Notes: a model not told the origin generated them from the letters alone. A DNA stretch of 45,723 nt from Syntrophomonas sp. DTU018 (GCA_001513155.1 LFSR01000033.1:1-45723), one strand, 5' to 3'. Shown: positions 4,873-39,086, counted from the stretch's first letter. A program made the numbers and translations.

Positions 4873-5117
4873 AATATGCCCTTCCTCCCTGGTTAAAACT
4901 GACCAGGTTTAGCTTTTCCCAAGGGGCCGGGAATATTACCTGTTTATGATAGCCACTTTAGACTCGCGCCTATCCATCCGGCTGGGCTTGGTTCATGGAG
5001 TTATATATGTCCGGCCAGAGGGGCATACTAGAAAGAAATGCCTGGCAAATATATGGCATAGACCTCGGATAGAAAAGCATACAATGACTTGTCAGCAAGT
5101 TGGAGGTAACGCTTCTT

Positions 5118-6164
5118 ATGATATCAGTAATCCTAGCGGGCGGTAAAGGACTGCGTCTTTGGCCGGAAAGCAGGCGATCCCGCCCCAAACAATTATGCAA
5201 ATTTGTCGACAACCGCTCCATGCTGGACCATACCATTGATCGGCTTATAAATCTGGGGTCACGCCGAATAATAATTATTACCAGTGATGATCTCAAACCT
5301 TCCATTCAGGCCCTGGTGCAGCAGCGGCCTGACGGGGGCTGTATCGATATACTGAGCGAACCGGTAGGAAAAAACACTGCTCCGGCAGTGGGCATGGCAC
5401 TGGCCCGGTGTTTAGATGAAGCTTTAGATGACGTCTTGGGCATTTTTCCGGCTGACCATCATATCCTGGACAATCGGGCCTTTGAAGAAAGCATCCGGCG
5501 GGCGGTTAAAGCGGCCCAACAGGGGTGTGTGGTGACTATCGGCATCACCCCCAGCAGGCCGGAAACCGGCTATGGATATATTGAAAAAACTAAATGGGAA
5601 ATTGCTTCCCTGGATAATGTCTATCAGGTAAATTCCTTCTGTGAAAAACCTGACCTTAACATAGCTCAGGCCTACCTTAACAGCGGCTCCCACATGTGGA
5701 ATGCCGGGATTTATATAGCTAAAGGCGGCACCCTGCTGGAAGAATTCGCCCGTCACCTGCCGGAGATTTACGAAAACATCATCAAGGGATTGGAGGGGTA
5801 TATATCCTCTTATGAAAACTTGCCGGAAATCAGCCTGGATTACGGCATTGCCGAGAAATCGGACCGTATGGCGGTAGTCCCGGCAGATTTTGGCTGGTGT
5901 GACCTGGGCAGTTGGAATGCTCTGGAAGAATTATATGAAGTGGATAAAGACAACAATGTGGTCTGCGGTGAGGATGCGATTCCTCTGGACAGCCGCAACT
6001 GCGTAATAAAACAGTGCGACAAGTCCATAGTTCTGTTCGGGGTGGATCGCCTGCTGGTGGTAGAGACAGATGACGTGATTTTTATCGCCGATCGCAACCG
6101 GGCGCAGGAAGTGCGCACAGTAGTGGACACTTTATACCAGCTGAACCGTCACGATCTTTTATAA
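5118..6164 (+). CDS. manC: Mannose-1-phosphate guanylyltransferase
   Basis: Transfers GMP from GTP to mannose-1-phosphate to give GDP-mannose, in the cytoplasm. At 348 residues it consists of the nucleotidyltransferase domain only, without the cupin isomerase domain of bifunctional enzymes. It shows the signature LAGGKGLRLWPES at residues 6-18 with the following RPKQ. It also has the sugar-phosphate region EPVGKNTAPA, FPADHHI, GYGYIE, FCEKP and WNAGIY. I chose ATG 5118 because ttggaggt at 5100-5107 is its ribosome site; starting at TTG 5100 would make that site coding. The next gene, 27 bases on, is the phosphomannomutase that supplies its substrate, so the pair forms a GDP-mannose module for the downstream glycosyltransferases. 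Confidence 0.94.
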   Translation: MISVILAGGKGLRLWPESRRSRPKQLCKFVDNRSMLDHTIDRLINLGSRRIIIITSDDLKPSIQALVQQRPDGGCIDILSEPVGKNTAPAVGMALARCLDEALDDVLGIFPADHHILDNRAFEESIRRAVKAAQQGCVVTIGITPSRPETGYGYIEKTKWEIASLDNVYQVNSFCEKPDLNIAQAYLNSGSHMWNAGIYIAKGGTLLEEFARHLPEIYENIIKGLEGYISSYENLPEISLDYGIAEKSDRMAVVPADFGWCDLGSWNALEELYEVDKDNNVVCGEDAIPLDSRNCVIKQCDKSIVLFGVDRLLVVETDDVIFIADRNRAQEVRTVVDTLYQLNRHDLL

Positions 6165-6191: not shown

Positions 6192-7574
6192 ATGATGAGC
6201 ACTATTTTTCGCCAGTACGATATACGGGGGATAGTAGGACGTGATTTAGACGATGAACAGGTGGACCGGATCAGCCGGGCTTTTGCTGCCTACGCCTGCG
6301 GCCAAGGTCAAACTCAAATCCTGTTGGGCTACGATAATCGCCATTCTTCTCCCCACTTTCGGGATATAGCCGCCCAGGCCTTAGTGGAAAGCGGCTTCCG
6401 GGTTATAGACCTGGGTATGGTAATAACGCCCATGTTCTATTTTGCCTGTCACCACCTTAACATTAGGGCGGGCTTAATGATTACCGCCAGCCACAATCCC
6501 CCGGAATACAACGGGTTCAAATTGCTGTTGGGCGAATCAACTATTTGCGGTGACCAGATCCAGGAAGTAAAGCGTATTGCAGAGGAAGGAGCTTTTCTCT
6601 ATAAAGACGGAGGATCTCTGGAAACATACGATATACAGCCGGCTTATCACCAAATGATCCTGGAAAAAATCAAAATGGGACCGCGCCTTATAAAGGCAGT
6701 AGTGGACTGCGGCAATGGCACTGCCTCTCTTTTCGCTCCCCAGATATTACGGGACCTGGGTTGTGAAGTGGTAGAACTATACTGTGAATCTGATCCTGAT
6801 TACCCCCATCATCACCCGGATCCGGTCAATCCCAACAATATGGACGATCTTGTGGATATGGTCCTGCGCTGTAAGGCAGATCTGGGAATAGGTTTCGATG
6901 GGGATGGGGACCGCCTGGGATTGGTAGATTCCCACGGCAATATGATCTGGGGAGATTTGCTCATGATTCTTTTCTGGCGGGAGCTGCTGCCCCGCTATCC
7001 AGGCACTCCGGCTATAGTGGAAGTAAAATGCTCCCAGAGTCTTATCGACGAAATCAAGCGTCTGGGGGGCAAACCGGTTCTCTACAAAACCGGTCATTCC
7101 CTGATAAAGGCCAAAATGAAAGAGATTGGGGCCATATTCACCGGGGAAATGTCGGGGCATATGTTCTTCGCCGACGAATACTACGGCTATGATGACGCCA
7201 TTTATGCCGCTGCCCGGCTGTTATCCCTGCTTTCCCGCCAGGAAAAAAGCTTGGCTGAACTCCTGCAGGATGTGCCCCGTTACTATTCAACTCCGGAAAT
7301 ACGGATTCCCAGCACCGATGCCGAGAAATTCCATCAAGTGGAGCGGGTTATCCAGCATTTTGAACCCCTTTACGAAATAATTAAAGTTGATGGCGCCCGT
7401 ATTCTCTTTCCCCAGGGATGGGGTCTGGTCCGGGCTTCCAATACCGGTCCCGAATTGATAGTGCGCTGTGAAGGCAATACCCCTCAGGCTTTGGAAGAGA
7501 TTAAGTCAGAACTGTTTTCATTTCTGGCTGAACTCGGTCTTCCCATGGCAGAGGAAGAATTGATCAAGGTATAA
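6192..7574 (+). CDS. Phosphomannomutase/phosphoglucomutase
   Basis: A 460-residue alpha-D-phosphohexomutase that interconverts mannose-6-phosphate and mannose-1-phosphate (often glucose phosphates too). It has the full four-domain layout: the N-terminal FRQYDIRGIVG, the phosphoserine loop TASHNPPEYNGFKL, the Mg-binding GFDGDGDRLG, a sugar-binding GEMSGHMFF, and the C-terminal phosphate-binding RASNTGPELIVRCEG. Its length and the YDIRG start match the AlgC/ManB-type bacterial enzymes. ttggagg lies just upstream; ATG 6192 or ATG 6195 could be used. It is placed 27 bases after manC and 59 bases before the GT4 gene, all the same way round, so one operon is likely. Confidence 0.95.
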   Translation: MMSTIFRQYDIRGIVGRDLDDEQVDRISRAFAAYACGQGQTQILLGYDNRHSSPHFRDIAAQALVESGFRVIDLGMVITPMFYFACHHLNIRAGLMITASHNPPEYNGFKLLLGESTICGDQIQEVKRIAEEGAFLYKDGGSLETYDIQPAYHQMILEKIKMGPRLIKAVVDCGNGTASLFAPQILRDLGCEVVELYCESDPDYPHHHPDPVNPNNMDDLVDMVLRCKADLGIGFDGDGDRLGLVDSHGNMIWGDLLMILFWRELLPRYPGTPAIVEVKCSQSLIDEIKRLGGKPVLYKTGHSLIKAKMKEIGAIFTGEMSGHMFFADEYYGYDDAIYAAARLLSLLSRQEKSLAELLQDVPRYYSTPEIRIPSTDAEKFHQVERVIQHFEPLYEIIKVDGARILFPQGWGLVRASNTGPELIVRCEGNTPQALEEIKSELFSFLAELGLPMAEEELIKV

Positions 7575-7633
7575 AGTCATCCAAACAAGTCTAGAATATT
7601 GGGAAAGTCTGCTTGAGTTCGAGGAGGTTATTA

Positions 7634-8803
7634 ATGACTGTTGTTAATCTAGGTACCTATCCACCCAAGCAGTGTGGAATAGCTACTTTTTCTCAGGATT
7701 TGCGACGCAGCCTTATGAAAGCCGGACACACGGTTTTAGTGGCAGCGGTTTCTGATCATGAGTATGAATACCAGTATCCATCCGAGGTAATAATTGAAAT
7801 CGGCCAGCACCAAAAACAGGATTATCTCCAAGCTGCCTCGCTGATCAACAGCCATAATGCAGTCGACCTGGTGATTATCCAGCATGAATATGGCATCTAC
7901 GGAGGACCCAGCGGCAGTTACTTGCTGGATTTTTGCCGTGCTTTGGATAAACCCTTTATGGTAGTCACCCATACCGTGCTTCCCTCCCCGGAAGAACTGC
8001 GCTATAAACTACTGGCAGAACTGACCCAGCAGGCTGCGGCTGTAGTGTGCATGACCCAGAATTCAGCTGATCTCCTGCAGCGGGTATATCATGTGCCTCG
8101 TTCGAAAATCAATCTCATCAGTCACGGGGTGCCTGAATTTACTCCCAAATCCCCCAGTGCCCTCAAGAAAAAGTATGGCCTGCAGGGGCAAAATGTTATT
8201 TCCACCTTTGGGCTGATAGGGCCGGGCAAAGGATTGGAACTGGGTATACGGGCCATAGCCGAGGTGGTAAAGGAATACCGGGAATGTACTTACCTGATAT
8301 TAGGTCAGACCCATCCCATGCTGCAGAAAAGCGAAGGGGAAAGATATCGCCAGATGCTGGAACAGCTGGTATTAGAATTAGATATCGCTGGCAACGTGAA
8401 ATTCGTAAACCGCTTTCTCACCGATGAAGAGCTGGGAGAATACCTATATCTTACCGATATTTATTTAAGTCCCTATCCCAACTTAGACCAGGCGGTATCA
8501 GGAACCTTGAGTTTTGCTGTTGGTTCCGGACGAGCTATTGTGTCTACCCCTTATGCTCATGCCCTGGAGCTGTTGGCCGAAGAACGGGGCCTGTTGGCTT
8601 CCAAGCCTGATTATCTGGAATTGGCCCAGTTGATAAAATCCATCCTGGCTGATCCGGCTTTGAAGACCCGGCTGCAGAACAATGCACGCCAATTGGGGCA
8701 CACCCTGAGTTGGACCCAGGTAGGACGGCGTTACAGCCAGGTCATAAGTGAAATCCTCAAGTACAGCCAAAAAGCAGAAGGGAAAAAGATCCATTATGCT
8801 TGA
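7634..8803 (+). CDS. Glycosyltransferase family 4 (group 1), GT-B fold
   Basis: A cytoplasmic 389-residue GT-B fold glycosyltransferase. The N-terminal domain opens with LGTYPPKQCGIATFSQDL, the acceptor-side glycine-rich loop typical of GT4 enzymes. The C-terminal donor domain starts near VISTFGLIGPGKGLELGIRA. The expected late E-x7-E region is degenerate (SPYPNLDQAVSGTLSFAVGSGRAIVST), a form seen in GT4 proteins that travel with beta-mannoside phosphorylases. ATG 7634 was chosen over TTG 7613 because gaggaggt sits seven bases before it. Its stop overlaps the next gene's start. With GDP-mannose made by the two upstream genes, a mannosyl donor is the obvious guess, but acceptor and linkage cannot be read from sequence. 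Confidence 0.87.
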   Translation: MTVVNLGTYPPKQCGIATFSQDLRRSLMKAGHTVLVAAVSDHEYEYQYPSEVIIEIGQHQKQDYLQAASLINSHNAVDLVIIQHEYGIYGGPSGSYLLDFCRALDKPFMVVTHTVLPSPEELRYKLLAELTQQAAAVVCMTQNSADLLQRVYHVPRSKINLISHGVPEFTPKSPSALKKKYGLQGQNVISTFGLIGPGKGLELGIRAIAEVVKEYRECTYLILGQTHPMLQKSEGERYRQMLEQLVLELDIAGNVKFVNRFLTDEELGEYLYLTDIYLSPYPNLDQAVSGTLSFAVGSGRAIVSTPYAHALELLAEERGLLASKPDYLELAQLIKSILADPALKTRLQNNARQLGHTLSWTQVGRRYSQVISEILKYSQKAEGKKIHYA

Positions 8804-9818
8804 CTACCGCCATTTGTACCGGATGACAGACGCTCATGGCATGCTGCAGTTTTCCAAACTGTCTGAGCCCGATCCTGCCAGTGGTTATACCCTGGATGAC
8901 AATGCACGTGCCTTAATAGTAGCTGTGCACATGGAAGATGGCCACCAACTGGCTGTTACTTACGCTTCCTGGCTCAATCAGGCCCAGCGCTATGACGGTA
9001 CCTGGAGCAACCTGCAGGCCCTCGGCCATGACATCCGGGCACTAGACTCGGAGGATAGCGTGGGACGGGCATTGCTGGCTTGTGCTATAGGCATGTCCAG
9101 TTCCTGGCATGATGTACAGAGCTTGTGCCGGGCTATGTTTAACCGGCACTTGCCCCAGGCTATGCGTTTCAGATCTCCCCGGGCGGTGGCCTACACTTTA
9201 ACGGCCCTCTGCAAGCTAAATAAGCCCTTGTCCCGGGAAAACCTCCACCAGGTTAAGCAGCTAAGCTCTTTTTTAGTAAACTTGTACAAACAGAACCGTA
9301 AAAGAAGCTGGCACTGGTTCGAAGACATTATTGCTTACAGCAACGGCATATTGCCCCAGTCGTTATTATGCGTATATGCCAGAACCGGGGATAAAAGTGC
9401 CCTGAAGACCGCCCACGATACCCTGAATTTTCTATGCGATATCCTGTTTAGAAACGGTTACCTGAATATTATCGGCAACCAGGGCTGGATGGTAAGGGGC
9501 AAAAAACCAGCTTGCTATGATCAACAGCCTGTAGACGCTGCCTCCATCGCTTTCGCCTGCCTGGAAGCTTACCAGAGCATAGGGGGGCAGCATTATTTGG
9601 ATTTGGCCCATAGGGCCCACCGCTGGTTTCATGGAGAAAATATCCACGGATTATCGTTGTATGACGAGACAACAGGAGGGTGTTTTGACGCTTTAACCCC
9701 TGCAGGGGTTAATCTCAATCAGGGAGCGGAATCCCTGCTGGCCTATTTGCTTTGTGAACAGCATGCAGCCAAATACGTCCAAAAAGATCAGCCAGCAGCC
9801 CTGGAGCAGTCTTCCTAA
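8796..9818 (+). CDS. Six-hairpin (alpha/alpha-barrel) glycosidase-like protein
   Basis: A 340-residue soluble protein, rich in helices and aromatic residues, resembling six-hairpin glycosidase-superfamily proteins. It starts MLDYRHLYRMTDAHGMLQFS, then has SGYTLDDNARALIVA (about residues 25-39), SEDSVGRALLACA, SWHWFEDIIAYSNGILPQSLL and a late ETTGGCFDAL. The DDNARAL motif recurs in proteins encoded next to GT4 enzymes and GH130 phosphorylases. No signal peptide is present, so it is cytoplasmic. ATG 8796 overlaps the stop of the GT4 gene by eight bases, pointing to translational coupling and joint action on one product. Catalytic residues and activity are unknown; an earlier in-frame start at 8748 would lie inside the GT4 gene and is less likely. 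Confidence 0.75.
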   Translation: MLDYRHLYRMTDAHGMLQFSKLSEPDPASGYTLDDNARALIVAVHMEDGHQLAVTYASWLNQAQRYDGTWSNLQALGHDIRALDSEDSVGRALLACAIGMSSSWHDVQSLCRAMFNRHLPQAMRFRSPRAVAYTLTALCKLNKPLSRENLHQVKQLSSFLVNLYKQNRKRSWHWFEDIIAYSNGILPQSLLCVYARTGDKSALKTAHDTLNFLCDILFRNGYLNIIGNQGWMVRGKKPACYDQQPVDAASIAFACLEAYQSIGGQHYLDLAHRAHRWFHGENIHGLSLYDETTGGCFDALTPAGVNLNQGAESLLAYLLCEQHAAKYVQKDQPAALEQSS

Positions 9819-9833: not shown

Positions 9834-10937
9834 TTAGTTAACTGGGGCGGTCTTTTCCGGGGAACTATCGGGCAGCTTGAAATCAATGTGGAAGGTTGTT
9901 CCTTGAGGGTCGGTCTGGATGTCCACCGTAGCCTGATGGCGGGCAATAATACTGAAACACACAGCCAAACCTAAACCGGTTCCTTTTTCCTTGGTCGTAA
10001 AGAAGGGAGTACCGATTTTATCCATGATGGAGGGATCAATTCCCGGGCCTTCATCCCGGATGGACATTCGAACCCGGTCTTCCAATTGTTCGGTAGTTAT
10101 AGTAACCTTACCCCCGGGTGACATTGCTTCCAGCCCGTTGCGGACCAGGTTCAATATTAACTGGCGGATCTCCTGCTCGTTCAGCAGCAGATCATCAATG
10201 TCTCCCGGAACAAAACAAACCTGTTTGTCATCGATAGCCGCATCAGCCTGCAGGAGAGGATGCAGGCTGTTAATTATATGGTTTAGATTGGCGCGCCGGA
10301 AACTGACCTTTTTATTGCCGGCCAGGGACAGGAACTCATTGATAATGCCGTTGGCCCGCTCCAGTTCATCCAGCATAAGCTGAAAATAGGACTGATACTT
10401 GCTCAAGTCTTCATTCTGGCTGAGCATCTGCAAGAAACCCTGTACTGTGGTCATAGGATTACGTATTTCGTGACCTATGCAGGCCGCGATCTCCCCTACT
10501 TTATATAACTGGGCCAGTCGCGCCATTTCCTGTTTGATTTTGACTTTTTCAGTGACATCTTCACAGACTAGCAAACCGCCAACGACCATGTTGTTTTTCC
10601 TAATAGGAGTATTACGCAGGCTCACCGGCAGCAATGAGCCATCCTTGCGTTTAATGGCAGTTTTATAATGACCGGTTTTATCTTCCAGAAAACTGCTCAC
10701 CAGGTTCTCCAGGACCTGAAACTGGTACTTTCCCGGAAAGAGTTCCAGTATGCTCCTGCCTGTCATTTCATCCGGAACATAGCCCAGGTAATCATAACAG
10801 CGCTTATTCATTAGAGTAATACGAAGATTACTGTCATAGCTGAAGAACAACTCATTAATAGAATCAATCAGAGCATTCAAGTACTCAGCCTTCTCATCCC
10901 AACCTGTGCAATTGGCTGATACCCCCCGCATCTTCAT
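9834..10937 (-). CDS. PAS-domain sensor histidine kinase (soluble)
   Basis: A 367-residue sensor kinase without membrane segments. A PAS domain (about residues 18-130) includes FFSYDSNLRITLMNKRCYDY and the RKDGSLLPVSL stretch. Then come the HisKA helix with phosphoacceptor His156 in IGHEIRNPMTTVQGF, and an HATPase domain with N-box LNLVRNGLEAM, G1 DEGPGID, F-box FFTTKEKGTGLGLAV. The family resembles sporulation kinases of the KinA/KinE type. No response regulator is encoded nearby, so it may feed a phosphorelay such as Spo0F/Spo0A (inference). It lies 102 bases downstream of the GT-GH130 gene on the same strand and could be cotranscribed with it. Its stop faces that of the plus-strand carbohydrate operon across 15 bases. 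Confidence 0.93.
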   Translation of the reverse strand: MKMRGVSANCTGWDEKAEYLNALIDSINELFFSYDSNLRITLMNKRCYDYLGYVPDEMTGRSILELFPGKYQFQVLENLVSSFLEDKTGHYKTAIKRKDGSLLPVSLRNTPIRKNNMVVGGLLVCEDVTEKVKIKQEMARLAQLYKVGEIAACIGHEIRNPMTTVQGFLQMLSQNEDLSKYQSYFQLMLDELERANGIINEFLSLAGNKKVSFRRANLNHIINSLHPLLQADAAIDDKQVCFVPGDIDDLLLNEQEIRQLILNLVRNGLEAMSPGGKVTITTEQLEDRVRMSIRDEGPGIDPSIMDKIGTPFFTTKEKGTGLGLAVCFSIIARHQATVDIQTDPQGTTFHIDFKLPDSSPEKTAPVN

Positions 10938-11039: not shown

Positions 11040-14000
11040 TTATTTTTGGACTACTTTTCTAAATGATTCGGGCACCAGGTCAGCCAGGGTTGCTTTTGCC
11101 ACTCCTATACTGGTATCAGCCGCACCGTAGTAGACCAGGATTTCATCGTCATCCTCCAGGATCTCTTTATCAGTTCCTGGTACGGCCCCGCAGGTAAACA
11201 CCACATTGGGCACCCAGGCACCGCTCAGGCCGATTTCGTAATCCTCTTCCGGTTCCAAGATGGGATTGGGGGACCGGTAGATAACCTTGCGGGGATTGTC
11301 GAGGTCCACCAGCAATACTCCCAGGCGATAGACGTAATTGTAATCAACCCCATGATAGATCAGCAGCCATCCATACCGGGTCTTCAGAGGCTGGGCTCCG
11401 GCCCCGATTTTCATGGAATCCCACATGCGCCCGGGTCGGGGCCCAGCAATAATGGCATGTTTATCCCAAATGGGAAACTTTAATTCACTGCTGTAAGTTA
11501 CCCAAATGCTGGGCTCAATACGATGATAGATGATATACTTGCCGTTGATTTTCTCGGGGAAGATAATAGCATCCTTATCCCAGATATTTTGGAAAGCCAG
11601 CCCTTCCCGTTTCCAGTTGGTATAGTTTCCGGCTTTGAAGTCCTCCAGGGAAATGGAAGCCGCCGCTATCTGAGCAATGTTGCCGTCATAAGCGGTGTAG
11701 AGCATAAAAATCCGGTCTTCGATGACAATCAGGCGGGGGTCCTCGCAGCCCATTTTTTCCTCGGGTATCTCCGGGGAAAATATCGGATCCGGCAGGCGCT
11801 CCAATACCTTGAACCCATCGGTTATTGCCAGCCCGATGCGGGATATATTGTCCTCACCTACTGCCCGGTAGAACAGGTACACCTTGTCCCCAAAGCGCAA
11901 AGCTCCCGGATTCAGCACATATTTGGACTCCCATTTGCTTCCTTCCAAGGGCTCCAGCAATGGATTGCCTTCATAACGCTGCAGAGGACGACTGGGTTCA
12001 GTAGTGGTTTCCTGAACCACCACGGTTACATCCTTCGGACGGGTAGGCATCAAGGTATCCAGGAGACTGACATGGCTCTTGCCTGCTTGAATCATGCGGT
12101 AAACAATCTTTATCATTTCCTCCGGATCATAGCCCAATTCCCTATAGAGGTCTTCCAGGAAATCGTGGTTAAACCAGCGGCTTTCTACACTGGTGGTAAC
12201 GGGAGTGGGTATCTTTTGCCCGCCTTTGAAACTATAACTGGCCCAACTCCAGGCGGTACAGGTCAGAAAGGTTTCCTTTTCCAGCACTTGACTCAAGCCA
12301 TAACCCTGGACCATTAGATGCAGCAGACGGGCAATTTCCGTCCGGCCTTCCTTTTCCAGCCTCTCCGCCAGGAGCTTTACTTTCTTCACCAGGCTGCGGT
12401 GATGGTAGTTTTCAAAGATATTATGAGCCGAGAACTCATCACCCCGGCGAATCCCCAACAGCGAGTTGCGCACTTTAAGGCTGATGTTTTTCCTCTCGGA
12501 AACATTGATCTGAAAGATCTTGGAATACTGTTCCGCCACCGCCAGCCGGCGCACTATACTGGTAAAGTAACGGGTCTTGGGGTATTTACCCCCCTGGTCG
12601 GCAACCATGGGAGTCACGATTATCCTGCCGGTTACCCGGTTCAGGTCAGTAATCTTGGCCTGGCTTAAGCGACCTGCATGCAGTTCAGGACTGAGCAGGA
12701 CTGGTTTCAGGTCCACCCATTCAAAGCTTTCCGGTTTCAAATTATCTACCAGCCATAGCAAATCCCGGTCGGTATAGCTCCAGCTGGCCATGAGATTGGC
12801 ATAGGTAACCACATCCCGGGGGTCCATGTTTTCCAACAGCTGTTCCGCTTTGTAGTATCCTAAGGGAATCATCAGATTGACCGGCGGGAATCTGACTAAC
12901 ATTTCCCGCAGCAGGTCGGAGCTGATGGTAAACATGCGGTGGTCCGGGAAAAGAGCTAATAATCCTTCTACAAAAGACCTTAACCCGTCCTCTGTGCGGA
13001 TATCCCCTGGCAGGAGTTGGTCCAAGCCGGCTTCCAGCTTCTGCATGTACTCTTCCATCGCCCGGATAATGACCTCTTCGGGAGAATGCAGATCCACACC
13101 CAGGCCCTGGCTGATAAACTCATTGAAGCGATCTTCATAGCGTTTGCGCAGTTCCCGGAAAATATTATCCGTAGCTATTATCCGCTGGTCCTTGCCGATT
13201 ATCCGCTTGGGCACCACAATAGGCTTGCCGGGTACATATTCCATGTAGCTGAGGGGAATGATAGGCGGACGGCACTGTTCCTGATATTGGCTCCATAACT
13301 CATTCAACCTGGGTTTGTGTTTCCAGAATACCTCAGTCAGCCGGCGATGAATGGACTCCATTTTATGAAGGATGAGCTCATCCTGCTCCTGTTCCGCTGA
13401 CTCAGGCAAGCTCTTCTGAAAGTCTTGTATTTCGTTGATATAGCTCAGCACCCGCCCATTGTACAGACCGGTTAACAGGTCAAAAATAGCATCTGCGTTG
13501 ACCTGATCGCTAAAAACGTACTGCACCATCAGGTCAAACAGAGCCGACACCCAGAGATCATCATCCATTCGGAAAGGTTCAGCGTAGGCCAGACTGGTCA
13601 ATTCCCCGTTTGGATCAATTATGGCCAGCAAGTCCCGGTTTCTTTTCAGGCTTTGCTGAAAATTCTTCAGCAGGCTGGCGGGAGGATAAGTTATAAAGTC
13701 AGGGCGTTTGACTTCCTGGCGGGAAAGTATGTCGGCTACCTTTATCAGCAGGCGATCCTTGAGCCAAACGGCACTGTCCCTTTTCACCGCTTCAAATATG
13801 GTACGGGCATTTTCCCGGAAAATGCGGTTCCTGGTTTCCAGATTGTGCAGTTTTACCGCGCCGCCTAAGTTTACTTCACAAATGTTCTTATTCCAGCTTA
13901 AAGCTCTAGTGAGAATCCAAAAATCAATACCATACCCCTGGATGCTTTCTCCCCAAAAGGGGCCTTCGTGAACCAGTTCCTCCACAAAATCGTGGGAAAA

Positions 14001-14570
14001 AGCATATATCCCTCCCAGGGGATCTCCCACTCTGGCACCATAAAAGCTTTCCAGGATGGGGGAAGCCAGCATATGAGCAATACTGTCCATTACCTGATAC
14101 CGGCGCAGGCTTCCCAGCACCAAGTCATAATCTCCTTGAATAGGAGTTAACAGGCTGTCCAGCCAGGCATCCTCCAGCACCGGATCGTTTTGGCTGGACA
14201 TATGAGCTGAAAACACCATCAAATCAGCTTCTATGGCGTTGGCAATCTCCAGCAGAGCGCGAATGCTCGTCCCCCGCCCGCTGATTTCGGGAGGCAGGAC
14301 AAATTCTATATGCGGATGGTGCAATTGCAGGCTCTGTATGGATGCCAGTATATGCTGGGCTGATCCATCACCCACGCAGACAATCAACTGCCGTTTGCCT
14401 ATCCAGGATTTCAGTACTTCGTCAATAGATTGCAGCAACTTGGGCAGGTGGTCCTGTTCATCTACAAAAGGAATGCCTACTACCAGGTCAAAGTTGGCAT
14501 AATCTCTTAAAAGGGGTTTGATTTCCTGCATAACTTCATCAAATCGACTCTCACTATAGCTCTGGGTCAA
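11040..14570 (-). CDS. Bifunctional glycosyltransferase (GT81/GT2-like) - GH130 beta-mannoside phosphorylase fusion
   Basis: 1176 residues with three regions. Residues 25-250 form a GT-A domain resembling glucosylglycerate/mannosylglycerate synthases: GRGTSIRALLEIA at 98-110, DPLGGIYAFSHDF at 183-195, GYGIDFWIL at 212-220, KLHN at 240-243. Where a GT-A enzyme should have DXD after ADLMVF, this protein reads SAH (121-123). Residues 250-850 are a long region I do not recognise. Residues 865-1176 are a complete GH130 domain: NPGALRFGDKVYLFYRAVGED, the catalytic-acid motif GCEDPR (Asp944), YHRIEPS, GAGAQPLKTRYGWLLIYHGVD. GH130 enzymes are mostly inverting phosphorylases of beta-mannosides. No signal peptide is seen. 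With GDP-mannose genes nearby, a make-and-recycle enzyme for a mannan or mannosyl solute is plausible. The domain calls are firm, the activity is inferred. Confidence 0.88.
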   Translation of the reverse strand: MTQSYSESRFDEVMQEIKPLLRDYANFDLVVGIPFVDEQDHLPKLLQSIDEVLKSWIGKRQLIVCVGDGSAQHILASIQSLQLHHPHIEFVLPPEISGRGTSIRALLEIANAIEADLMVFSAHMSSQNDPVLEDAWLDSLLTPIQGDYDLVLGSLRRYQVMDSIAHMLASPILESFYGARVGDPLGGIYAFSHDFVEELVHEGPFWGESIQGYGIDFWILTRALSWNKNICEVNLGGAVKLHNLETRNRIFRENARTIFEAVKRDSAVWLKDRLLIKVADILSRQEVKRPDFITYPPASLLKNFQQSLKRNRDLLAIIDPNGELTSLAYAEPFRMDDDLWVSALFDLMVQYVFSDQVNADAIFDLLTGLYNGRVLSYINEIQDFQKSLPESAEQEQDELILHKMESIHRRLTEVFWKHKPRLNELWSQYQEQCRPPIIPLSYMEYVPGKPIVVPKRIIGKDQRIIATDNIFRELRKRYEDRFNEFISQGLGVDLHSPEEVIIRAMEEYMQKLEAGLDQLLPGDIRTEDGLRSFVEGLLALFPDHRMFTISSDLLREMLVRFPPVNLMIPLGYYKAEQLLENMDPRDVVTYANLMASWSYTDRDLLWLVDNLKPESFEWVDLKPVLLSPELHAGRLSQAKITDLNRVTGRIIVTPMVADQGGKYPKTRYFTSIVRRLAVAEQYSKIFQINVSERKNISLKVRNSLLGIRRGDEFSAHNIFENYHHRSLVKKVKLLAERLEKEGRTEIARLLHLMVQGYGLSQVLEKETFLTCTAWSWASYSFKGGQKIPTPVTTSVESRWFNHDFLEDLYRELGYDPEEMIKIVYRMIQAGKSHVSLLDTLMPTRPKDVTVVVQETTTEPSRPLQRYEGNPLLEPLEGSKWESKYVLNPGALRFGDKVYLFYRAVGEDNISRIGLAITDGFKVLERLPDPIFSPEIPEEKMGCEDPRLIVIEDRIFMLYTAYDGNIAQIAAASISLEDFKAGNYTNWKREGLAFQNIWDKDAIIFPEKINGKYIIYHRIEPSIWVTYSSELKFPIWDKHAIIAGPRPGRMWDSMKIGAGAQPLKTRYGWLLIYHGVDYNYVYRLGVLLVDLDNPRKVIYRSPNPILEPEEDYEIGLSGAWVPNVVFTCGAVPGTDKEILEDDDEILVYYGAADTSIGVAKATLADLVPESFRKVVQK

Positions 14571-14680
14571 CTGTAACCCTCCTTGTGCCGTATGTATTGA
14601 AAAGTATCTCCTAAATAGTTATGCTCCATTTCCCCTCAATATATTTAGCAATCGCCAACAAAATACAATTCTGATTACAG

Positions 14681-19015: not shown

Positions 19016-21145
19016 TTACTCCTGGCATTGCCAGAGGAGTTCGCAGATATCCAGGACCGGTATTTTGCCTTCCTGGTCGACTTCTTTCACCCCGTCAGTT
19101 ATCATAGTCATGCAGTAAGGGCAGTTAACAATCACGGTGTCCGGATTAACCTCCAGAAGCTGTTCGGTGCGGGTCTGGTTGATGCGTTTGAATCCTTCCA
19201 CCGCTTTTTCCTCCAGCCACATGCGGCCCCCTCCGGCACCACAGCAGAAGCCGAACTCCTTGGACTTTTCTATCTCCAAAAGAGTCCCGCCCGCCGCGGC
19301 AATAACCTCCCGGGGCTGGGAAAAGACCTGGTTATAGCGGCCCATAAAGCAGGAATCGTGATAGCTGATTCGCCGGTCGGTTTTCGAGGCGGTTTTGAGC
19401 TTCCCTTCTGCGATCAGCCGGGCCAGGATTTCCGTACTGTGGTATACCTCAAACTCCCCTCCCAGCTGAGGGTACTCATTTTTAATGGTGTTGTAGCCAT
19501 GGGGGCAGATGCAGATGATCTTCTTGGCATTGTAGCGCTGGAAGGACTCAATATTCTGGCTGGCCAGGGTCTGCCACAGGTATTCATTGCCCAATCTCCG
19601 GGCCCAGTCACCGCAGCAGTATTCTTCCGTACCCAGGTAAGCCACCTTGAGCCCGGCCTTATGCAGCAGTCGTACCAGGGCTTCCGCCGCCTTCTTGTAG
19701 CGGTCATCAAAAGCTGCAGCACAGCCGGCAAACAGCAGGTACTCAAACTCTCCTTCATCCTCGGGCAGCAGTATTACCAAATCGCGAATATTTCTTTCCG
19801 TAAGCCATTCAGCCCGGTTAGCCCAGCCCACGCCCCAGGGATTGTAGTTGCGTTCGGTATTGGTAAAGGCCATCTGGGCTTCGCTGGGCATGTCCCCCTG
19901 CCACATCACCAGGTTGCGGCGCATGTCAATAATCTTGGGAACATGTTCGATAAACATGGGACAATGATACACACAGGCCAGGCAGTTGGTACAGTCCCAC
20001 AGTACCTGGGGAGTGACAATATCGTAGATCATGTGTTTTTCCGTTTCCTTGACCCCTTCTATTTCAGCTTCGGTGGTCATGGTGACCTCCTCCATATCAT
20101 CGCTGCCTTGCCCCAGCATATAAGGGGACTTGTTGTCCAGGTGTTTTTTCAGAGCCTGGATTATAGTTATCTTGGGGTTCAAGGCTTTACCGGTATTATA
20201 GGCCGGACAGGCTTCCTGGCACCTGCCGCAGCGGATGCAGGCATCCAGGTCCAGCAGATCCTTCCAGCTGAAGTCTTCAATTCTCTCAATTCCGTATGTT
20301 TCAGCTTCCTCAATATTCTCCACCAGCCGTACCGCCTGGGGCTGGTAATCCCGGGCATAGTAACTGGTCATGCCGGTGAAGATATGCCACAGCTTGGTAA
20401 AAGGCACCATAGCTATAAAGAGGAAAGAGATAGCCATGTGAAACCACCACATGAAACGGTGCCAGCTGAGGATACCTTCCAAAGCTGCACCGGAAAAGAA
20501 ACTGGCAAACAGCCAGCCAATGGGAGAAGCGGTGCGTTCATAGGCAATAGCCGCCATGGTGGGAGCCAATTGAATCTGAGCCGCGATACGCAGCCCTTCA
20601 ATAATGTATCCGGTTAGCAGAATAGCGAAAATCAGCACCAAAATCCAGCCGTCCAGGGGTTTGCTGTCATTCAGGCGATCGGGCCGCTGAACGTAGCGTA
20701 TATAAGCCAGGACAGCAACGCCGATCATAGCCAGAAATCCCATTATGTCCACAAACCAGGAAAAATAGATATAGATATTGCCGGTCATAGGGGGAAACCC
20801 GGTTACATTCCAAAGAGCAAAACTGGCTGTGGCTATCAGGAGCACCACAAAACCCCAGAACAGCAAGAAATGCATCCACCCTGGCACCGGCTTTTCCAGC
20901 ACCCTGGCCTGTCCGAAGGTATTATAGAGGAATGAGACAATTCTTTGGCCTATGGGCTCCTGGCGATGAGTCTCCCCCTGGGCCTGCATCCAGAGGCGGA
21001 CCCGTTTGTAGACCCCGTACAGGAAAATACTGATAGGAATCCACATCAGAATGTAAATCAGCCATTCATAATATATGTTGGCCCCTACAACCCGCATGGG
21101 AATCTCGTAACCGCCTTCCAAAGGATGAAAACTGAAAAAGCGCAC
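19016..21145 (-). CDS. Membrane FeS oxidoreductase, DUF224/EMO-like (EtfAB:quinone oxidoreductase type)
   Basis: A 709-residue protein. The N-terminal 280 residues are a NarI-like haem-binding membrane domain with five or six helices and histidines such as WHRFMWWFH. Two 4Fe-4S motifs follow, CIRCGRCQEACP (from Cys303) and CTNCLACVYHCP (from Cys385). Two CCG domains follow, the last with FCCGAGGG (Cys634-Cys635). This order matches the HdrD-related family that passes electrons from EtfAB to menaquinone in Syntrophomonas and relatives. The aaggaggag site points to GTG 21145 rather than ATG 21193, which overlaps a stem-loop. It directly follows nuoN on the same strand, with no etfAB in the window. 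The exact partner is inferred. Confidence 0.9.
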   Translation of the reverse strand: MRFFSFHPLEGGYEIPMRVVGANIYYEWLIYILMWIPISIFLYGVYKRVRLWMQAQGETHRQEPIGQRIVSFLYNTFGQARVLEKPVPGWMHFLLFWGFVVLLIATASFALWNVTGFPPMTGNIYIYFSWFVDIMGFLAMIGVAVLAYIRYVQRPDRLNDSKPLDGWILVLIFAILLTGYIIEGLRIAAQIQLAPTMAAIAYERTASPIGWLFASFFSGAALEGILSWHRFMWWFHMAISFLFIAMVPFTKLWHIFTGMTSYYARDYQPQAVRLVENIEEAETYGIERIEDFSWKDLLDLDACIRCGRCQEACPAYNTGKALNPKITIIQALKKHLDNKSPYMLGQGSDDMEEVTMTTEAEIEGVKETEKHMIYDIVTPQVLWDCTNCLACVYHCPMFIEHVPKIIDMRRNLVMWQGDMPSEAQMAFTNTERNYNPWGVGWANRAEWLTERNIRDLVILLPEDEGEFEYLLFAGCAAAFDDRYKKAAEALVRLLHKAGLKVAYLGTEEYCCGDWARRLGNEYLWQTLASQNIESFQRYNAKKIICICPHGYNTIKNEYPQLGGEFEVYHSTEILARLIAEGKLKTASKTDRRISYHDSCFMGRYNQVFSQPREVIAAAGGTLLEIEKSKEFGFCCGAGGGRMWLEEKAVEGFKRINQTRTEQLLEVNPDTVIVNCPYCMTMITDGVKEVDQEGKIPVLDICELLWQCQE

Positions 21146-21172
21146 AGCAAAACTCCTCCTTAAAACAACAAC

Positions 21173-21202
21173 GGGTAGACCATGTTTTTCCATAGTCTAC
21201 CC
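21173..21202 (-). promoter_or_regulatory. Intercistronic stem-loop between nuoN and the EMO-like gene
   Basis: gggtagac (21173-21180) and gtctaccc (21195-21202) form a perfect eight-pair stem with a 14-base loop. On the coding strand it is followed by gttgttgtttt and then the ribosome site of the EMO-like gene. It could attenuate, or stabilise or process the mRNA, setting the EMO level apart from the nuo genes. Confidence 0.5.
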
Positions 21203-21228
21203 GCTCTTGAAGGAATATATTTGCGAGT

Positions 21229-22641
21229 TTATAAGAATATCTGAATGGCCACCTGAGCCAGGTCGGAGAGGGGGCCCGGGTAAAGACCCAGGAAGATCGT
21301 TCCTGCCAGGCAGATCCACAGGGCAGCACCCACGGCCTTTCCGGGCTTGATGGCACTTGTATCATCATTAGTGCCGATGTACATGGCGCGGGCCACCTGC
21401 AGATAGTAGTAAACCGAGACCATGCTCATAATCAAACCTATAAAAGCCAGCCACAGCAATCCGGACTGGATGGCGCCGGAAAACAGGTAGAATTTGCCCA
21501 CGAAACCGGCCAGGGGCGGAATGCCGGCCAGGGAGAGCATGCATATGGTCATAATGGCCGCCACCATGGGGGATCGCCGGGCCAGGCCATTGAAAGCTTC
21601 AATATCCGTACTGCCGGTTTCCACTTCCACTACGGTAGCCGCAGCAAAGGCTCCCAGGTTGGAGAAGACATACAGCATGGAATAGAACAGCACGCCTTTT
21701 ATCCCATATATATTGTAGGCCGCCAGACCGACTATAATATATCCTGCCTGGGCGATACTGGAATAAGCCAGCAGGCGTTTTACATTGGTCTGAGCCAGGG
21801 CAATCAAATTGCCTGCTATAATCGTAACCGCCGCCAGCACTGCCAGCAGTAAAGGCCAATCAAAGGCTCTCACCGGGAAAGCGATGATAAACACTCGTAC
21901 CAGAGCAGCAAATGCAGCCGCTTTCGAACCCACGGACAGGAACGCGGTAACGGGTATGGGTGCTCCCTGGTAAATATCCGGGGCCCACATGTGGAAAGGC
22001 ACCAGGGATACTTTGAAGGCAAAGCCTGCCAGGATCAGGATTATGCCGGCAATCATCACCGGTTCAATGGTAAATCCTGCCGCCATCTCGGCAATAACCG
22101 TTGTTCCGGTAACAGCATACACCAGGCTTATACCAAACAGCAGTATGGCAGATGAGAGGGCACCCAGAATCAAATATTTCAGACCTGCCTCTGCCGACAG
22201 CTTATCGTTTAACAGGTAAGCGGTGAGGATATAGAAGCTTATGGTCATCAGTTCCAGGCCTATATAGAGGGTGATCATTTCTCCGGCGGAAGCCATAACC
22301 ACCATACCCAGCAGGGCAAAGACCATTAAGCTGTAGAACTCATTGACCCGCTCCGCAAACCGTTCCAGGTAACGGCCGGCACTGAGAATTACCAGTATCC
22401 CGGCTACCAAAAACAGCAGTTTGAAGAAGCCGGCAAAGGGATCAACCTGGTAGTTCCCGCTGAAGAGATCATATTGAGCAGCATATAATGTGCCGCCCAG
22501 AATCAATATGGCCAGCAGTCCTATCACTGTCAAAGGCTGCATTAACAGGCGCCCTTTTTCCGGCAGCACCAGCCCCAGGACCAGCAAAACCAACCCCAGC
22601 AAAGCCAAAGCTATCTCTACCGAAAGCAGCGACCAGGGCAT
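21229..22641 (-). CDS. nuoN: NADH-quinone oxidoreductase subunit N
   Basis: A 470-residue proton-pumping antiporter-like subunit of complex I in the membrane arm, with about 14 helices. Conserved pieces are LYIGLELMTISFYILTAY (the key helix-5 Glu), the broken-helix Lys region FKVSLVPFHMWAPDIYQGAP, and RLLAYSSIAQAGYI. It is last of the eleven nuo genes. Its ATG overlaps the nuoM stop by one base, giving translational coupling. Size and motifs are normal and nothing is missing. Confidence 0.96.
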   Translation of the reverse strand: MPWSLLSVEIALALLGLVLLVLGLVLPEKGRLLMQPLTVIGLLAILILGGTLYAAQYDLFSGNYQVDPFAGFFKLLFLVAGILVILSAGRYLERFAERVNEFYSLMVFALLGMVVMASAGEMITLYIGLELMTISFYILTAYLLNDKLSAEAGLKYLILGALSSAILLFGISLVYAVTGTTVIAEMAAGFTIEPVMIAGIILILAGFAFKVSLVPFHMWAPDIYQGAPIPVTAFLSVGSKAAAFAALVRVFIIAFPVRAFDWPLLLAVLAAVTIIAGNLIALAQTNVKRLLAYSSIAQAGYIIVGLAAYNIYGIKGVLFYSMLYVFSNLGAFAAATVVEVETGSTDIEAFNGLARRSPMVAAIMTICMLSLAGIPPLAGFVGKFYLFSGAIQSGLLWLAFIGLIMSMVSVYYYLQVARAMYIGTNDDTSAIKPGKAVGAALWICLAGTIFLGLYPGPLSDLAQVAIQIFL

Positions 22642-24146
22642 TAGAACATCCCTCCTATCTGCAGCGATCCCAGTTGAGCAACCAGGTCGCCCACCCCCAG
22701 ATTAATGAGGTCCATTAAGGTGAAGGGGGCTATGCCGCCGATTAATATAGCTGCACCCAGAACCACCAGGGGTACCATTTCCGGACCCTTAAGGTCCTCC
22801 AGGTGATCCCATTCCGGTTTGCGCGGTCCGAACAAAACCGCAGCCAGGGTTCTCAGGATGTACAGGGCGGTGAATATAACTCCGGAGACCGCTAATATGG
22901 TTAAAACCTTGTAGACACCGAAAGCACCGATGAATATGGTGAACTCGCCTATGAAGTTAACCATGCCCGGCAGGCCCAGGGAGGCCAGTCCGGCGATCAT
23001 AAATCCGGCAGCCAGCCGGGGCATCTGGTGAGCCAGCCCGCCGAAATCATCCACATTGCGGGTATGGCTCTTCTCATACAGGTTGCCGATCATAGCAAAG
23101 AACAGGGCGGCCATAACACCGTGGGCAAACATCATGATGATGGCTCCGTTGATGCTGATCAGATTCAAGGCCGCAATACCAATCAGCACATATCCCATGT
23201 GGCTCACACTGGAATATCCCACAATATACTTGAGGTCCTTTTGGCTCAGGCAGATGAAAGCTGCATAAACTACGTTGCCCAATGCCAGTACCGCAATTAC
23301 CGGAGCCACATAAGCCGCTCCTCCCGGCAGGATCATCAGGCCTATGCGAATCAATCCGTAGCCGCCGATTTTCTTCAGTACGCCGGCATGGATCATACTA
23401 ACCGCTGTGGGCGCTCCCGCGTACCCGTCCGGGGACCAGGCATGGAAGGGGAACATGGACAGCAGGGTCCCAAAGCCAAAGGCCATCAAAGCAAATACGA
23501 ATATCTGAAATCCCAGGGGGAAGTCAATGGTTGCCAGCTCGAAAATATCCATAGTGGGATAGCCCAGAATATAGTAGGACTGGACAAACAGGGCGATTAA
23601 TCCCACCAGGAGGAAAGCGCTTCCGATCAACAGGTAGATGGTCAGCTTCATACCGGCATATTCCTTGGTAACCCGCTTACTGCTGCCGAACATGATTACC
23701 AGCAGGTATATGGGGATAACCACCACTTCGTAGAACAGAAAGAATATGAACAAATCGGTGGCCAAAAAGGTTCCCATAACCCCGGTTATCAGAATCAGCA
23801 ACAGGCTGAAGAACTCCTTGACCCGATCGTTTATTCTCCAGGAGGCATAAACGGCACTGAAGCCGATCAGGTTGGTAAGGAGGAGCATGGGAATGCTTAT
23901 CCCATCTACTCCCAGGGCGAAGGTTACACCAAGATCAGCCACCCAGGGGATTTGCTGTACAAACTGCAATCCTCCCTGAATGCGGTCATAAGCAAACCAC
24001 ACCCAGATAGACAGGGCCATGCTGATAAAGGTAAATACCGCGGCGATTGACTTGATGGTCTTTTCCCGGTCCGGGGGCAGAAGCATTATCAGTATGGCTC
24101 CCAGTACCGGTGCAAAAAGGGTTATTGCTAAAATCCAGCTGCTCAT
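22641..24146 (-). CDS. nuoM: NADH-quinone oxidoreductase subunit M
   Basis: A 501-residue antiporter-like membrane subunit of complex I. Proton-channel landmarks are FFLFYEVVVIPIYLLVIMFG (Glu on helix 5), FPFHAWSPDGYAGAPTAVSM (helix 7-8 region) and KYIVGYSSVSHMGYVLIG. It sits between nuoL (12 bases upstream) and nuoN (overlapping), in the usual order for the membrane arm. The start is ATG 24146 with a ggggtgaaggt site. Confidence 0.96.
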   Translation of the reverse strand: MSSWILAITLFAPVLGAILIMLLPPDREKTIKSIAAVFTFISMALSIWVWFAYDRIQGGLQFVQQIPWVADLGVTFALGVDGISIPMLLLTNLIGFSAVYASWRINDRVKEFFSLLLILITGVMGTFLATDLFIFFLFYEVVVIPIYLLVIMFGSSKRVTKEYAGMKLTIYLLIGSAFLLVGLIALFVQSYYILGYPTMDIFELATIDFPLGFQIFVFALMAFGFGTLLSMFPFHAWSPDGYAGAPTAVSMIHAGVLKKIGGYGLIRIGLMILPGGAAYVAPVIAVLALGNVVYAAFICLSQKDLKYIVGYSSVSHMGYVLIGIAALNLISINGAIIMMFAHGVMAALFFAMIGNLYEKSHTRNVDDFGGLAHQMPRLAAGFMIAGLASLGLPGMVNFIGEFTIFIGAFGVYKVLTILAVSGVIFTALYILRTLAAVLFGPRKPEWDHLEDLKGPEMVPLVVLGAAILIGGIAPFTLMDLINLGVGDLVAQLGSLQIGGMF

Positions 24147-24158
24147 ACCTTCACCCCC

Positions 24159-26048
24159 TTACATGAATACCGTATAGCGCATTGTAAAGCCGGCAATCAT
24201 GACCAGCCCTGCGATAACGATGACACCAACCAACATGTAACCGGCATAAGTCTGCACCTGACCGGTTTCCGTATAGCGCAGCACCTTGCCTGCTCCTCCG
24301 GTCAGGGCGGCGATGCCATTGACAATGCCATTTACTACATAGATATCGAACCAGAACAGAACTTTGGCGGTTCCGTCAATGAATATCTGACCCAGTTGGT
24401 GATAGATTTCATCAATGTAGTACTTGTTGTACAGCAGGGTATAAATACCCCGGAATTTTTCCCGCAAAGCCAGGTGGCTGATCCATTCCTTCTGGTATAC
24501 AGCCCAGGCCAGCACTATGCCGGCTATGGCTACCAGAGCGGAAATCACCATAACCATGGCATTAGGATCATGATGGACCGCTCCCGGATAGGTCACATAG
24601 TGGGCAAAAGCATAGTCCATCAGCGGAGAGCCCACAAATCCCGCTACCAACGCCAGAACCGCCAGGATTACCAGCGGTACCGTCATTACTGCCGGTGACT
24701 CATGGGCATGCTCCCCGCCCTTATTGCTGCCGAAGAAGGCTACAAAGATAAGGCGGAACATATAGAAAGCGGTCAGGAAGGCTACCAGGGTGCCCAGCAG
24801 GTAAAAGCCCATATACCCGCCGGCATAGGCTCCCAGGAGTATCTCATCCTTGCTCCAGAACCCGGACAGGGGCGGAATGCCCGCCAGGGCCAGAGCACCG
24901 ATAACAAAGGTCCAGGTGGTAACCGGCATTTTATCTTTCAAATTGCCCATCTTCCAGATATCCTGTTCATTGGCCATAGCGTGGATAACACTGCCGGCGG
25001 CCAGGAAGAGCAGGCTCTTAAAGAAGGCATGGGTCATCAGGTGGAACATTCCTGCGGTCATGGCTCCAATGCCCATGGCCATCACCATATATCCCAATTG
25101 GCTCAAAGTGGAATAAGCCAAAATCCGCTTGATATCGTTCTGTACCAGGGCAATTGTGGCGGCGAACAGTGCGGTAAATCCGCCTACCACCGCAATCACC
25201 ATCATGGATTCCGGTGTGGCGCTGAAAATAAAGTAAGCCCGGGCTATCAAATACACACCAGCCGCTACCATGGTAGCCGCGTGGATCAGAGCGCTGACCG
25301 GAGTGGGACCTTCCATGGCATCCGGTAGCCAGACATGCAGGGGGAACTGGGCCGACTTGCCGATAGGCCCGGCCAGGAGCAATATGGATATGATAATTAA
25401 GACTGCCGTATTGGTATACCCGGCGATTTCCCCTGCCAGGCCATTAAAGTTAAGGGTACCGAAAATAATCTGCAGGAACAATATCGCCAGCAGGAATCCG
25501 AAATCCCCTACCCGGTTGGTGACAAAAGCTTTAACCGCCGCATTCTTGGCTGAATCACGGCCGAACCAAAAGCCTATCAACAGGTAAGAGGCCAGACCCA
25601 CCAGTTCCCAGAAGACAAATATCTGACCGAAGTTGTTGGCCAGAACCAGTCCCAGCATAGCTCCCGCGAAAACCGACTGGTAGGCGTAATAACTGCTGAA
25701 ACCGGGATCACCGTGCATATAGCCCAAGGAGTATACCTGAACCAGCAAGGCTACCAGAGTCACCACGATGAGCATGACCCCGGTTATTCCATCTATTAGC
25801 AAGCCCATATCTACCTTCAAACCCGGCATATCCAGCCAGCGTATGGACATTTCAAAGGCTTCCTCCATGCCTCCCAGGAAAACATGGGCTGCTACCAAAA
25901 CCGATAATATAAAGGACAGACCAATGGCCAGGATCGACAAAGAGGCGGACAGCCTGGGCCAACGGTGTAAGAACAGGCCAATCAGAGCAAAGGCTGCAAA
26001 GGGCAGCAGTACGATCAGCCAGGCTAATTCTAAGCTCCATGCAAACAT
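24159..26048 (-). CDS. nuoL: NADH-quinone oxidoreductase subunit L
   Basis: A 629-residue distal antiporter-like subunit of complex I with the long C-terminal lateral helix expected of NuoL. Motifs include FWELVGLASYLLIGFWFG, SAQFPLHVWLPDAMEGPTPV and KRILAYSTLSQLGYM. ATG 26048 is preferred because aaggtgg lies upstream; the GTG 26060 start would sit inside it. It is separated from nuoK by 13 bases. Full length, no gaps seen. Confidence 0.96.
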   Translation of the reverse strand: MFAWSLELAWLIVLLPFAAFALIGLFLHRWPRLSASLSILAIGLSFILSVLVAAHVFLGGMEEAFEMSIRWLDMPGLKVDMGLLIDGITGVMLIVVTLVALLVQVYSLGYMHGDPGFSSYYAYQSVFAGAMLGLVLANNFGQIFVFWELVGLASYLLIGFWFGRDSAKNAAVKAFVTNRVGDFGFLLAILFLQIIFGTLNFNGLAGEIAGYTNTAVLIIISILLLAGPIGKSAQFPLHVWLPDAMEGPTPVSALIHAATMVAAGVYLIARAYFIFSATPESMMVIAVVGGFTALFAATIALVQNDIKRILAYSTLSQLGYMVMAMGIGAMTAGMFHLMTHAFFKSLLFLAAGSVIHAMANEQDIWKMGNLKDKMPVTTWTFVIGALALAGIPPLSGFWSKDEILLGAYAGGYMGFYLLGTLVAFLTAFYMFRLIFVAFFGSNKGGEHAHESPAVMTVPLVILAVLALVAGFVGSPLMDYAFAHYVTYPGAVHHDPNAMVMVISALVAIAGIVLAWAVYQKEWISHLALREKFRGIYTLLYNKYYIDEIYHQLGQIFIDGTAKVLFWFDIYVVNGIVNGIAALTGGAGKVLRYTETGQVQTYAGYMLVGVIVIAGLVMIAGFTMRYTVFM

Positions 26049-26061
26049 CCGTCCCACCACC

Positions 26062-38962: not shown

Positions 38963-39086
38963 CCCCGCCAATACTCCTGCTTGCAATGTTCCCATTCCTG
39001 AGGAAAGAACCATCTTTGGTATCAGTAATTAATTTTCTCCAGCAGCAAATACTAACAAAAGACTTCAAAGAAAGGAAGTGGATGCG

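Follow-up and report, generated by a model that had tools for sequence, protein, structure and literature searches.

A GT78/GT81-like module with an altered metal site joined to a GH130 domain in a conserved three-part protein of Syntrophomonas and related bacteria

We analysed a 45,723-nucleotide stretch of DNA from Syntrophomonas sp. DTU018 (GCA_001513155.1, LFSR01000033.1:1-45723), which we will henceforth refer to as the window, and in it a single minus-strand open reading frame (ORF) at positions 11040-14570 whose product of 1176 amino acids (aa) is a fusion of three parts: an N-terminal glycosyltransferase (GT) module, an unclassified middle domain (MID) and a C-terminal GH130 domain. 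We found that the GT module has neither aspartate of the DXD motif of GT78 and GT81 enzymes, that its pocket is otherwise kept and that it evolves under strong purifying selection. We lean, with moderate confidence, towards reading the protein as a cytoplasmic beta-1,2-mannoside phosphorylase in which a GT78/GT81-derived module works not as a metal-dependent transferase but by binding a nucleotide sugar or a glycan end and positioning or regulating the phosphorylase. The chain is laid out as follows:

11040-14570, minus strand: whole three-part protein, conserved over its entire length in 61 full-length sequences, the window's included
14578-14583, minus strand: AGGAGG ribosome-binding site, 8-13 bases upstream of the TTG start
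13761-14501, minus strand: GT-A core, residues 24-270, mannosylglycerate-synthase-like (alignment, structure model)
13281-13760, minus strand: C-terminal helical domain of the GT module, residues 271-430, the fastest evolving part (mannosylglycerate synthase match to residue 422, identity)
11991-13280, minus strand: MID, residues 431-860, an unclassified conserved domain (alignment, profile searches)
11061-11984, minus strand: GH130 domain, residues 863-1170 (Pfam match, alignment)

The ORF had been proposed in an initial annotation made from the sequence of the window, and it proved to be real, with a TTG start and the ribosome-binding site upstream. Since its full-length homologues share 42-93% identity and the ratio of non-synonymous to synonymous substitution rates (dN/dS, or omega; measured against L031, the nearest relative) is 0.02-0.12 in every part (0.034 in the GT core, 0.020 in GH130), neither the frame nor the architecture can be put down to chance. 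The host genome (2.56 Mb, 99.9% complete) contains one copy of the fusion and no other match, and its nearest named relatives come from Syntrophomonas-type bacteria (Syntrophomonadaceae). No signal peptide is evident in the protein, which we therefore read as cytoplasmic.

A single-sequence AlphaFold model of the whole chain (pLDDT 35) was discarded, and the fold of the GT module was taken from an AlphaFold model that covers residues 1-860 and draws on 19 homologues (pLDDT 77, pTM 0.54). The best structural match of this model (Foldseek, VIA-align) was mannosylglycerate synthase (MGS; GT78), aligned over residues 29-422 (Z 33, root-mean-square deviation 3.0, 354 of 380 residues), followed by GT81 enzymes with Z about 19. 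Among sequence profiles the best match was to the GT81 enzymes GpgS and R. xylanophilus MpgS (E 1e-5); Pfam GT2 gave a weak echo in the GT half (E 0.033), Pfam MGS_GT had no match anywhere in the genome, even at E 1, and no second MGS-like transferase was found there. The module also aligns end to end, at ~20% identity, with standalone transferases of ~430 aa from the same phylum that carry the motifs DSD and KVHD. Because the MGS fold match runs to residue 422 and the alignment with the standalone transferases is end to end, we consider the module complete, ending near residues 424-430; according to the model, then, residues 1-430 are one complete transferase module including its C-terminal helical domain. 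The limits given initially for the GT-A domain (25-250) were thus too narrow, and of the 600 residues then left as unknown, some 160-170 belong to the C-terminal domain of the GT module, with ~430 (431-860) truly unrecognised. The initial label of GT81/GT2-like likewise held in part: GT81 ranks second by fold, GT78 MGS is closest and GT2 is present as the weak Pfam echo. The standalone GT78/GT81-like transferases (L065, L067, L068) occur in other families of the phylum with DSD and KVHD intact and resemble glucosyl-3-phosphoglycerate synthase (NCBIfam PRK13915, E 1e-16, under the cut-off), a profile with which the window's protein gives no match.

At the position of DXD the window's protein reads SAH, and the motifs GRGTSIRALLEIA, DPLGGIY and GYGIDFW are all present in the GT module, both as reported initially. 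The sites of interest are:

14202-14210, minus strand: S121-A122-H123, at the DXD position of GT78/GT81 (alignment)
14271-14279, minus strand: G98-R99-G100, equivalent of GKG (Lys114 in GpgS, Lys76 in MGS), with K or R at position 99 in 58 of 58 homologues
14004-14024, minus strand: D183-PLGGIY motif (PLGGE in MGS, PLSGE in GpgS; alignment)
13917-13937, minus strand: G212-YGIDFW motif, D216 corresponding to Glu232 of GpgS and Asp192 of MGS (alignment)

The metal in GpgS and MGS is bound by a His and the second Asp of DXD, while the first Asp is linked in a network to the Lys of GKG and an acidic residue of the YG(V/I)E/D motif (PMC2581804). All our motif counts cover 58 non-redundant fusion homologues, none of which has both Asps. 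Position 121 is occupied by S (19), E (19), A (9), N (3), D (2) and others, and position 123 by D (33), N (10), H (6), K (5), G (2), E (1) and Y (1), meaning that the metal-binding second Asp survives in 33 of the 58, mostly outside Syntrophomonadaceae. Whether SAH is conserved had been raised as a check, and it is not: the Syntrophomonadaceae clade shows SAH, SAN, SAK, NAH, SVG and other triplets, and most other families retain one Asp, as EAD or AAD. Elsewhere in the pocket, R99 (as K or R), G214 and W218 are kept in every homologue, D216 in 48 and E38 in 49.

On a tree built from MID plus GH130 (a quick tree whose root was not inferred), position 123 switched between D and non-D at least six times. 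Non-D residues fill nearly all 24 rows of the Syntrophomonadaceae clade (support 100), and three further members (L073, L098 and L076) are non-D separately from it. Given that the deep divergent members L075, L077 and L101 lie closest to the standard motifs (EAD, GKG, and PLGGE or PLGDE), the distribution suggests, but does not prove, that the metal-site acids were lost gradually. A sequencing error was ruled out as the cause of the missing DXD, as SAH is also found in L031 and L032 and the whole clade is without DXD; a decaying pseudogene was ruled out by the dN/dS of 0.03. With the pocket conserved and dN/dS this low, the GT half is, judged from its sequence, a module that strong purifying selection (omega 0.03) has retained despite changes at its metal site. 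A binding or regulatory module would show such a pattern, as would a metal-independent transferase, but a decaying domain would not; this agrees with the alternative put forward initially (altered metal binding, or a binding or regulatory module). The findings named at that stage as counter-evidence, homologues with a normal DXD and no link to mannose genes, did not turn up: both Asps occur together in no homologue and mannose genes recur nearby (see below).

Two fusion paralogues occur in one genome (G100). One (L073; 7335-10985, minus strand), beside genes for ManC and a phosphomannomutase (PMM), has lost the GRG, NE and DXD motifs and has an intact GH130, and the other (L072, the same sequence as L011) keeps AAD; they form a natural pair for the idea of a pseudo-enzyme.

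The initial assignment of the C-terminal domain to GH130, with catalytic Asp944 in GCEDPR, was borne out by a Pfam GH130 match over residues 884-1165 (E 2.9e-54, 184.6 bits vs. a cut-off of 26). Its closest solved relatives are a beta-1,2-mannobiose phosphorylase (E 2.7e-61) and a 1,2-beta-oligomannan phosphorylase (E 1.2e-57) of Thermoanaerobacter. By alignment, the residues of note are:

11739-11741, minus strand: Asp944 in GCEDPR, the conserved GH130 active-site Asp (Asp142 of BT3780)
11574-11576, minus strand: Lys999, equivalent of Lys199 of BT3780, a beta-1,2-mannose determinant
11520-11525, minus strand: His1016-Arg1017, candidate phosphate site, not in the hydrolase relative
11409-11411, minus strand: Lys1054 (KIG), candidate phosphate site
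11352-11354, minus strand: His1073 (YHGV), candidate phosphate site

The alignment comprised nine fusions, the Thermoanaerobacter-type GH130 pair and a Bacteroides homologue of GH130 mannosidases. Asp944, in G-x-E-D-P-R, was invariant throughout, and all these residues were common to the nine fusions; R1017, K1054 and H1073 match the Thermoanaerobacter-type pair, save for R in place of K1054 in one of the two, and the Bacteroides homologue reads W, G, L and N at positions 1016, 1017, 1054 and 1073. GH130 phosphorylases carry three basic phosphate-binding residues, whereas hydrolases are without them and have a glutamate pair instead, and Lys199 of BT3780 is a mark of beta-1,2-mannose specificity (PMC4599007); the assignment of phosphate-binding residues in the fusion draws on this work and on the alignment. 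Since the phosphorylase-type basic residues are kept and the hydrolase residues differ, we read the domain as a phosphorylase and not a mannosidase, as had been assigned before, and by its residues it looks like a beta-1,2-mannoside phosphorylase.

Between the two ends, MID (residues 431-860) matched no Pfam family and no PDB sequence in sequence-profile searches; its conserved motifs include GGxYPKLRY, FSAHNIFEN and SAWSWASYSFKGGxxIPTPxxxxVExxWF. Among the 398 genomes sampled from the phylum, 48 (about 1 in 8), spread over 11 families, contain MID and the fusion architecture; a weak 49th match (in G086) was rejected as chance, its host protein being without similarity to the fusions. All copies lie in fusion-length frames, bar a few shortened ones, some at contig ends. 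As no MID was seen outside the three-part architecture among the 398 genomes, the three parts appear to travel together.

The fusion lies next to four plus-strand genes that converge on it:

5100-6164, plus strand: ManC-type mannose-1-phosphate guanylyltransferase, recurrent neighbour (domain match, locus comparison)
6192-7574, plus strand: phosphomannomutase/phosphoglucomutase (PMM), recurrent neighbour (domain match, locus comparison)
7613-8803, plus strand: GT4 glycosyltransferase, recurrent neighbour (domain match, locus comparison)
8748-9818, plus strand: unannotated (alpha/alpha)-barrel-type protein, recurrent neighbour (distant GH76, C5-epimerase and GH127 profile matches)

Of 19 loci from outside the clade, 15 have one or more of ManC, PMM, GT4 and the 8748-type gene within about 9 kb, vs. 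none of the 19 for the other neighbours PepF, histidine kinase (HK), TypA and AgcS, so that the association with GDP-mannose genes extends beyond local synteny and the mannose link proposed initially gains support from other families. PepF is conserved as a neighbour within the clade, which may be mere synteny. The family profile of the 8748-9818 protein matches GH76 alpha-mannanase, C5-epimerase and GH127 domains distantly, its motifs include SGYTxDDNARAL, YDQQPVDAAS and NQGAEA, and in two other families (L076 and L077) it is fused to GT4; from these features the product would seem to be an (alpha/alpha)-barrel enzyme, so far uncharacterised, that acts in the same pathway. Its TAL-effector matches were dismissed as a repeat artefact. 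Two genomes of the window's family (L069, L070) have a second fusion copy, of AAD type, with its own GT4, PMM and ManC and without a recognisable 8748-type gene. Directly behind the fusion lies a PAS-domain histidine kinase gene (9834-10937, minus strand), which is probably outside the system, since no more than three of the clade's loci show a kinase match close to the fusion.

Taking the architecture, the modelled fold of the GT module, the residue content, the gene neighbourhood and the strong purifying selection as directly established, we infer the substrate, the direction of the reaction and the role of the GT module as follows. The GH130 domain would remove, or in reverse add, terminal beta-linked (beta-1,2-) mannose with phosphate in the cytoplasm, giving alpha-mannose 1-phosphate (Man1P), which the neighbouring ManC could return to GDP-mannose and the mutase could convert to mannose 6-phosphate for central metabolism. 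The ancestor of the N-terminal module would be a retaining transferase of nucleotide sugars, of GT78/GT81 type; in this clade the module lost both metal-site acids with the pocket otherwise kept, and it most likely holds a nucleotide sugar or a glycan end, positioning or regulating the phosphorylase. GT78 and GT81 are families of retaining enzymes whose products are alpha-mannosides, and the mannosides that GH130 acts on are beta-linked; the two halves thus cannot simply build and degrade the same bond, and the make-and-recycle enzyme originally suggested is not supported as stated. By analogy with GpgS in methylglucose lipopolysaccharide synthesis, the module could instead supply an alpha-mannosyl primer for a beta-mannan chain.

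Several observations weigh against this reading. The NCBIfam equivalog for beta-1,2-mannobiose phosphorylase (NF052550) scored 259.7 bits, below its cut-off of 450, so the exact GH130 acceptor may differ, and Lys999 is common to hydrolases too and does not fix the substrate. Where EAD or AAD is kept, a potential metal ligand remains and the module may there be an active transferase. In addition, H242 lies two alignment columns off the metal His of the standalone relatives (His217 in MGS), and its presence near that position in 15 of 58 homologues could mean that a metal site has been rebuilt.

A real, if minor, possibility is that the GT module is an active metal-independent transferase, comparable to bacterial GT6 enzymes with NXN for DXD, which primes or extends a mannoside from GDP-mannose while GH130 trims or extends the product. 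NXN in place of DXD gives metal independence in GT6 (PMC3961637), and Asn stands at position 123 in 10 of the 58 homologues, several of them reading NAN or SAN; R99 and D216, which correspond to sugar-contacting residues, are still there, nothing is missing from the fold, the C-terminal domain included, and the strong purifying selection, the adjoining GDP-mannose genes and the lack of another recognised MGS-like transferase in the genome point the same way. Position 123 is nonetheless unsettled (the clade shows H, N, K, G, E and D there), the Asp completing the Asp-Lys-Glu network of GpgS and MGS is lost, and MGS-type chemistry would give alpha-mannosides, an unexpected substrate for an inverting GH130. 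We consider it improbable that the GT module no longer handles any small molecule and serves the phosphorylase and MID only as a scaffold, for structure or for oligomerisation: it does evolve faster than GH130 (36-44% vs. 61-69% identity between families, and 12-25% in its C-terminal part), and L073 is without even the GRG and NE motifs, but the pocket motifs are its most conserved stretches and dN/dS in the GT core is 0.03.

Ordinary mannose salvage, in which GH130 degrades imported beta-mannosides and the mannose neighbours serve a cell-surface polysaccharide made by GT4, follows a model proposed for Thermoanaerobacter (PMC4264767) and is in our view unlikely here. ABC ATPases ~30% identical to the product of the window gene at 42822 do occur in six loci of other families (L074, L077, L088, L090, L091 and L092), at 0.4-6 kb from the fusion. 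However, the window shows neither a recognisable sugar importer nor a recognisable secreted mannanase close to the fusion, the window's own ABC ATPase (42822) is 28 kb away, and the nearest named relatives are Syntrophomonas-type bacteria, which are known as syntrophic fatty-acid oxidisers and not as glycan degraders. A bolder reading would make the chain a self-contained intracellular beta-mannan machine of anaerobic Bacillota, a bacterial counterpart of Leishmania mannogen in which the GT78-derived module senses GDP-mannose or primes without metal, MID holds the growing glycan and GH130 adds or removes mannose according to the balance of Man1P and phosphate; we offer this as a long shot. True glycogen synthase (GlgA) is sparse in the family and GT4-like matches blur the count, and no conclusion on a storage role was drawn.

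The metal site, lost in one clade and partly kept elsewhere, offers a natural series for testing how a transferase turns into a binding or regulatory module. The finding also suggests that syntrophic and related anaerobes have a GDP-mannose-linked beta-mannoside pathway yet to be characterised, and it yields a 430-residue domain matching no Pfam family. Each end of the chain belongs to or resembles a known kind; for the three-part GT-GH130 chain, MID and the graded metal-site loss we found no description in the open-licence papers searched, which is limited evidence, as CAZy module tables and most subscription papers lay outside the search.

Elsewhere in the window, 39078-41312 (plus strand) encodes a pyruvate formate lyase-type glycyl radical enzyme (Pfam PFL-like, E 8e-211), directly followed by a 245-aa ORF (41316-42053). 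The region 19016-26060 (minus strand) contains an iron-sulfur/cysteine-rich oxidoreductase (19016-21193) near a complex I or Mrp-type proton antiporter subunit (24159-26060), and together these genes look like an energy-conserving complex.

Among known systems, the closest solved relatives of residues 863-1170 are Teth514_1789 (beta-1,2-mannobiose phosphorylase) and Teth514_1788 (1,2-beta-oligomannan phosphorylase) of Thermoanaerobacter, which have the same catalytic Asp, Lys and phosphorylase-type residues and likewise cluster with ManC and GT4 (PMC4264767). They are single-domain proteins of ~300 aa found with an ABC importer and GH5, whereas the fusion's domain is the last third of 1176 aa. 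Rhodothermus marinus MGS (GT78) has the two-domain fold of residues 29-422 (Z 33), but at ~15% identity; its Asp100 and Asp102 correspond to S121 and H123, the Glu of its PLGGE is replaced and the fusion has two further domains. GpgS and R. xylanophilus MpgS (GT81), the best profile match (E 1e-5), have a related fold (Z about 19), but GpgS keeps DSD and His258 and is without the large C-terminal helical domain. In Leishmania, the GH130-like fold of the mannogen enzymes (GT108) both makes and recycles beta-1,2-mannan (PMC8950772); compared by its published description, GT108 is a single dual-activity propeller with no GT-A module. Finally, the metal-independent GT6 enzyme BoGT6a (NXN) is, like the fusion's module, of the retaining GT-A kind with the DXD acids replaced, but it belongs to another family and has a fixed NXN and demonstrated activity, whereas the replacement in the fusion varies.

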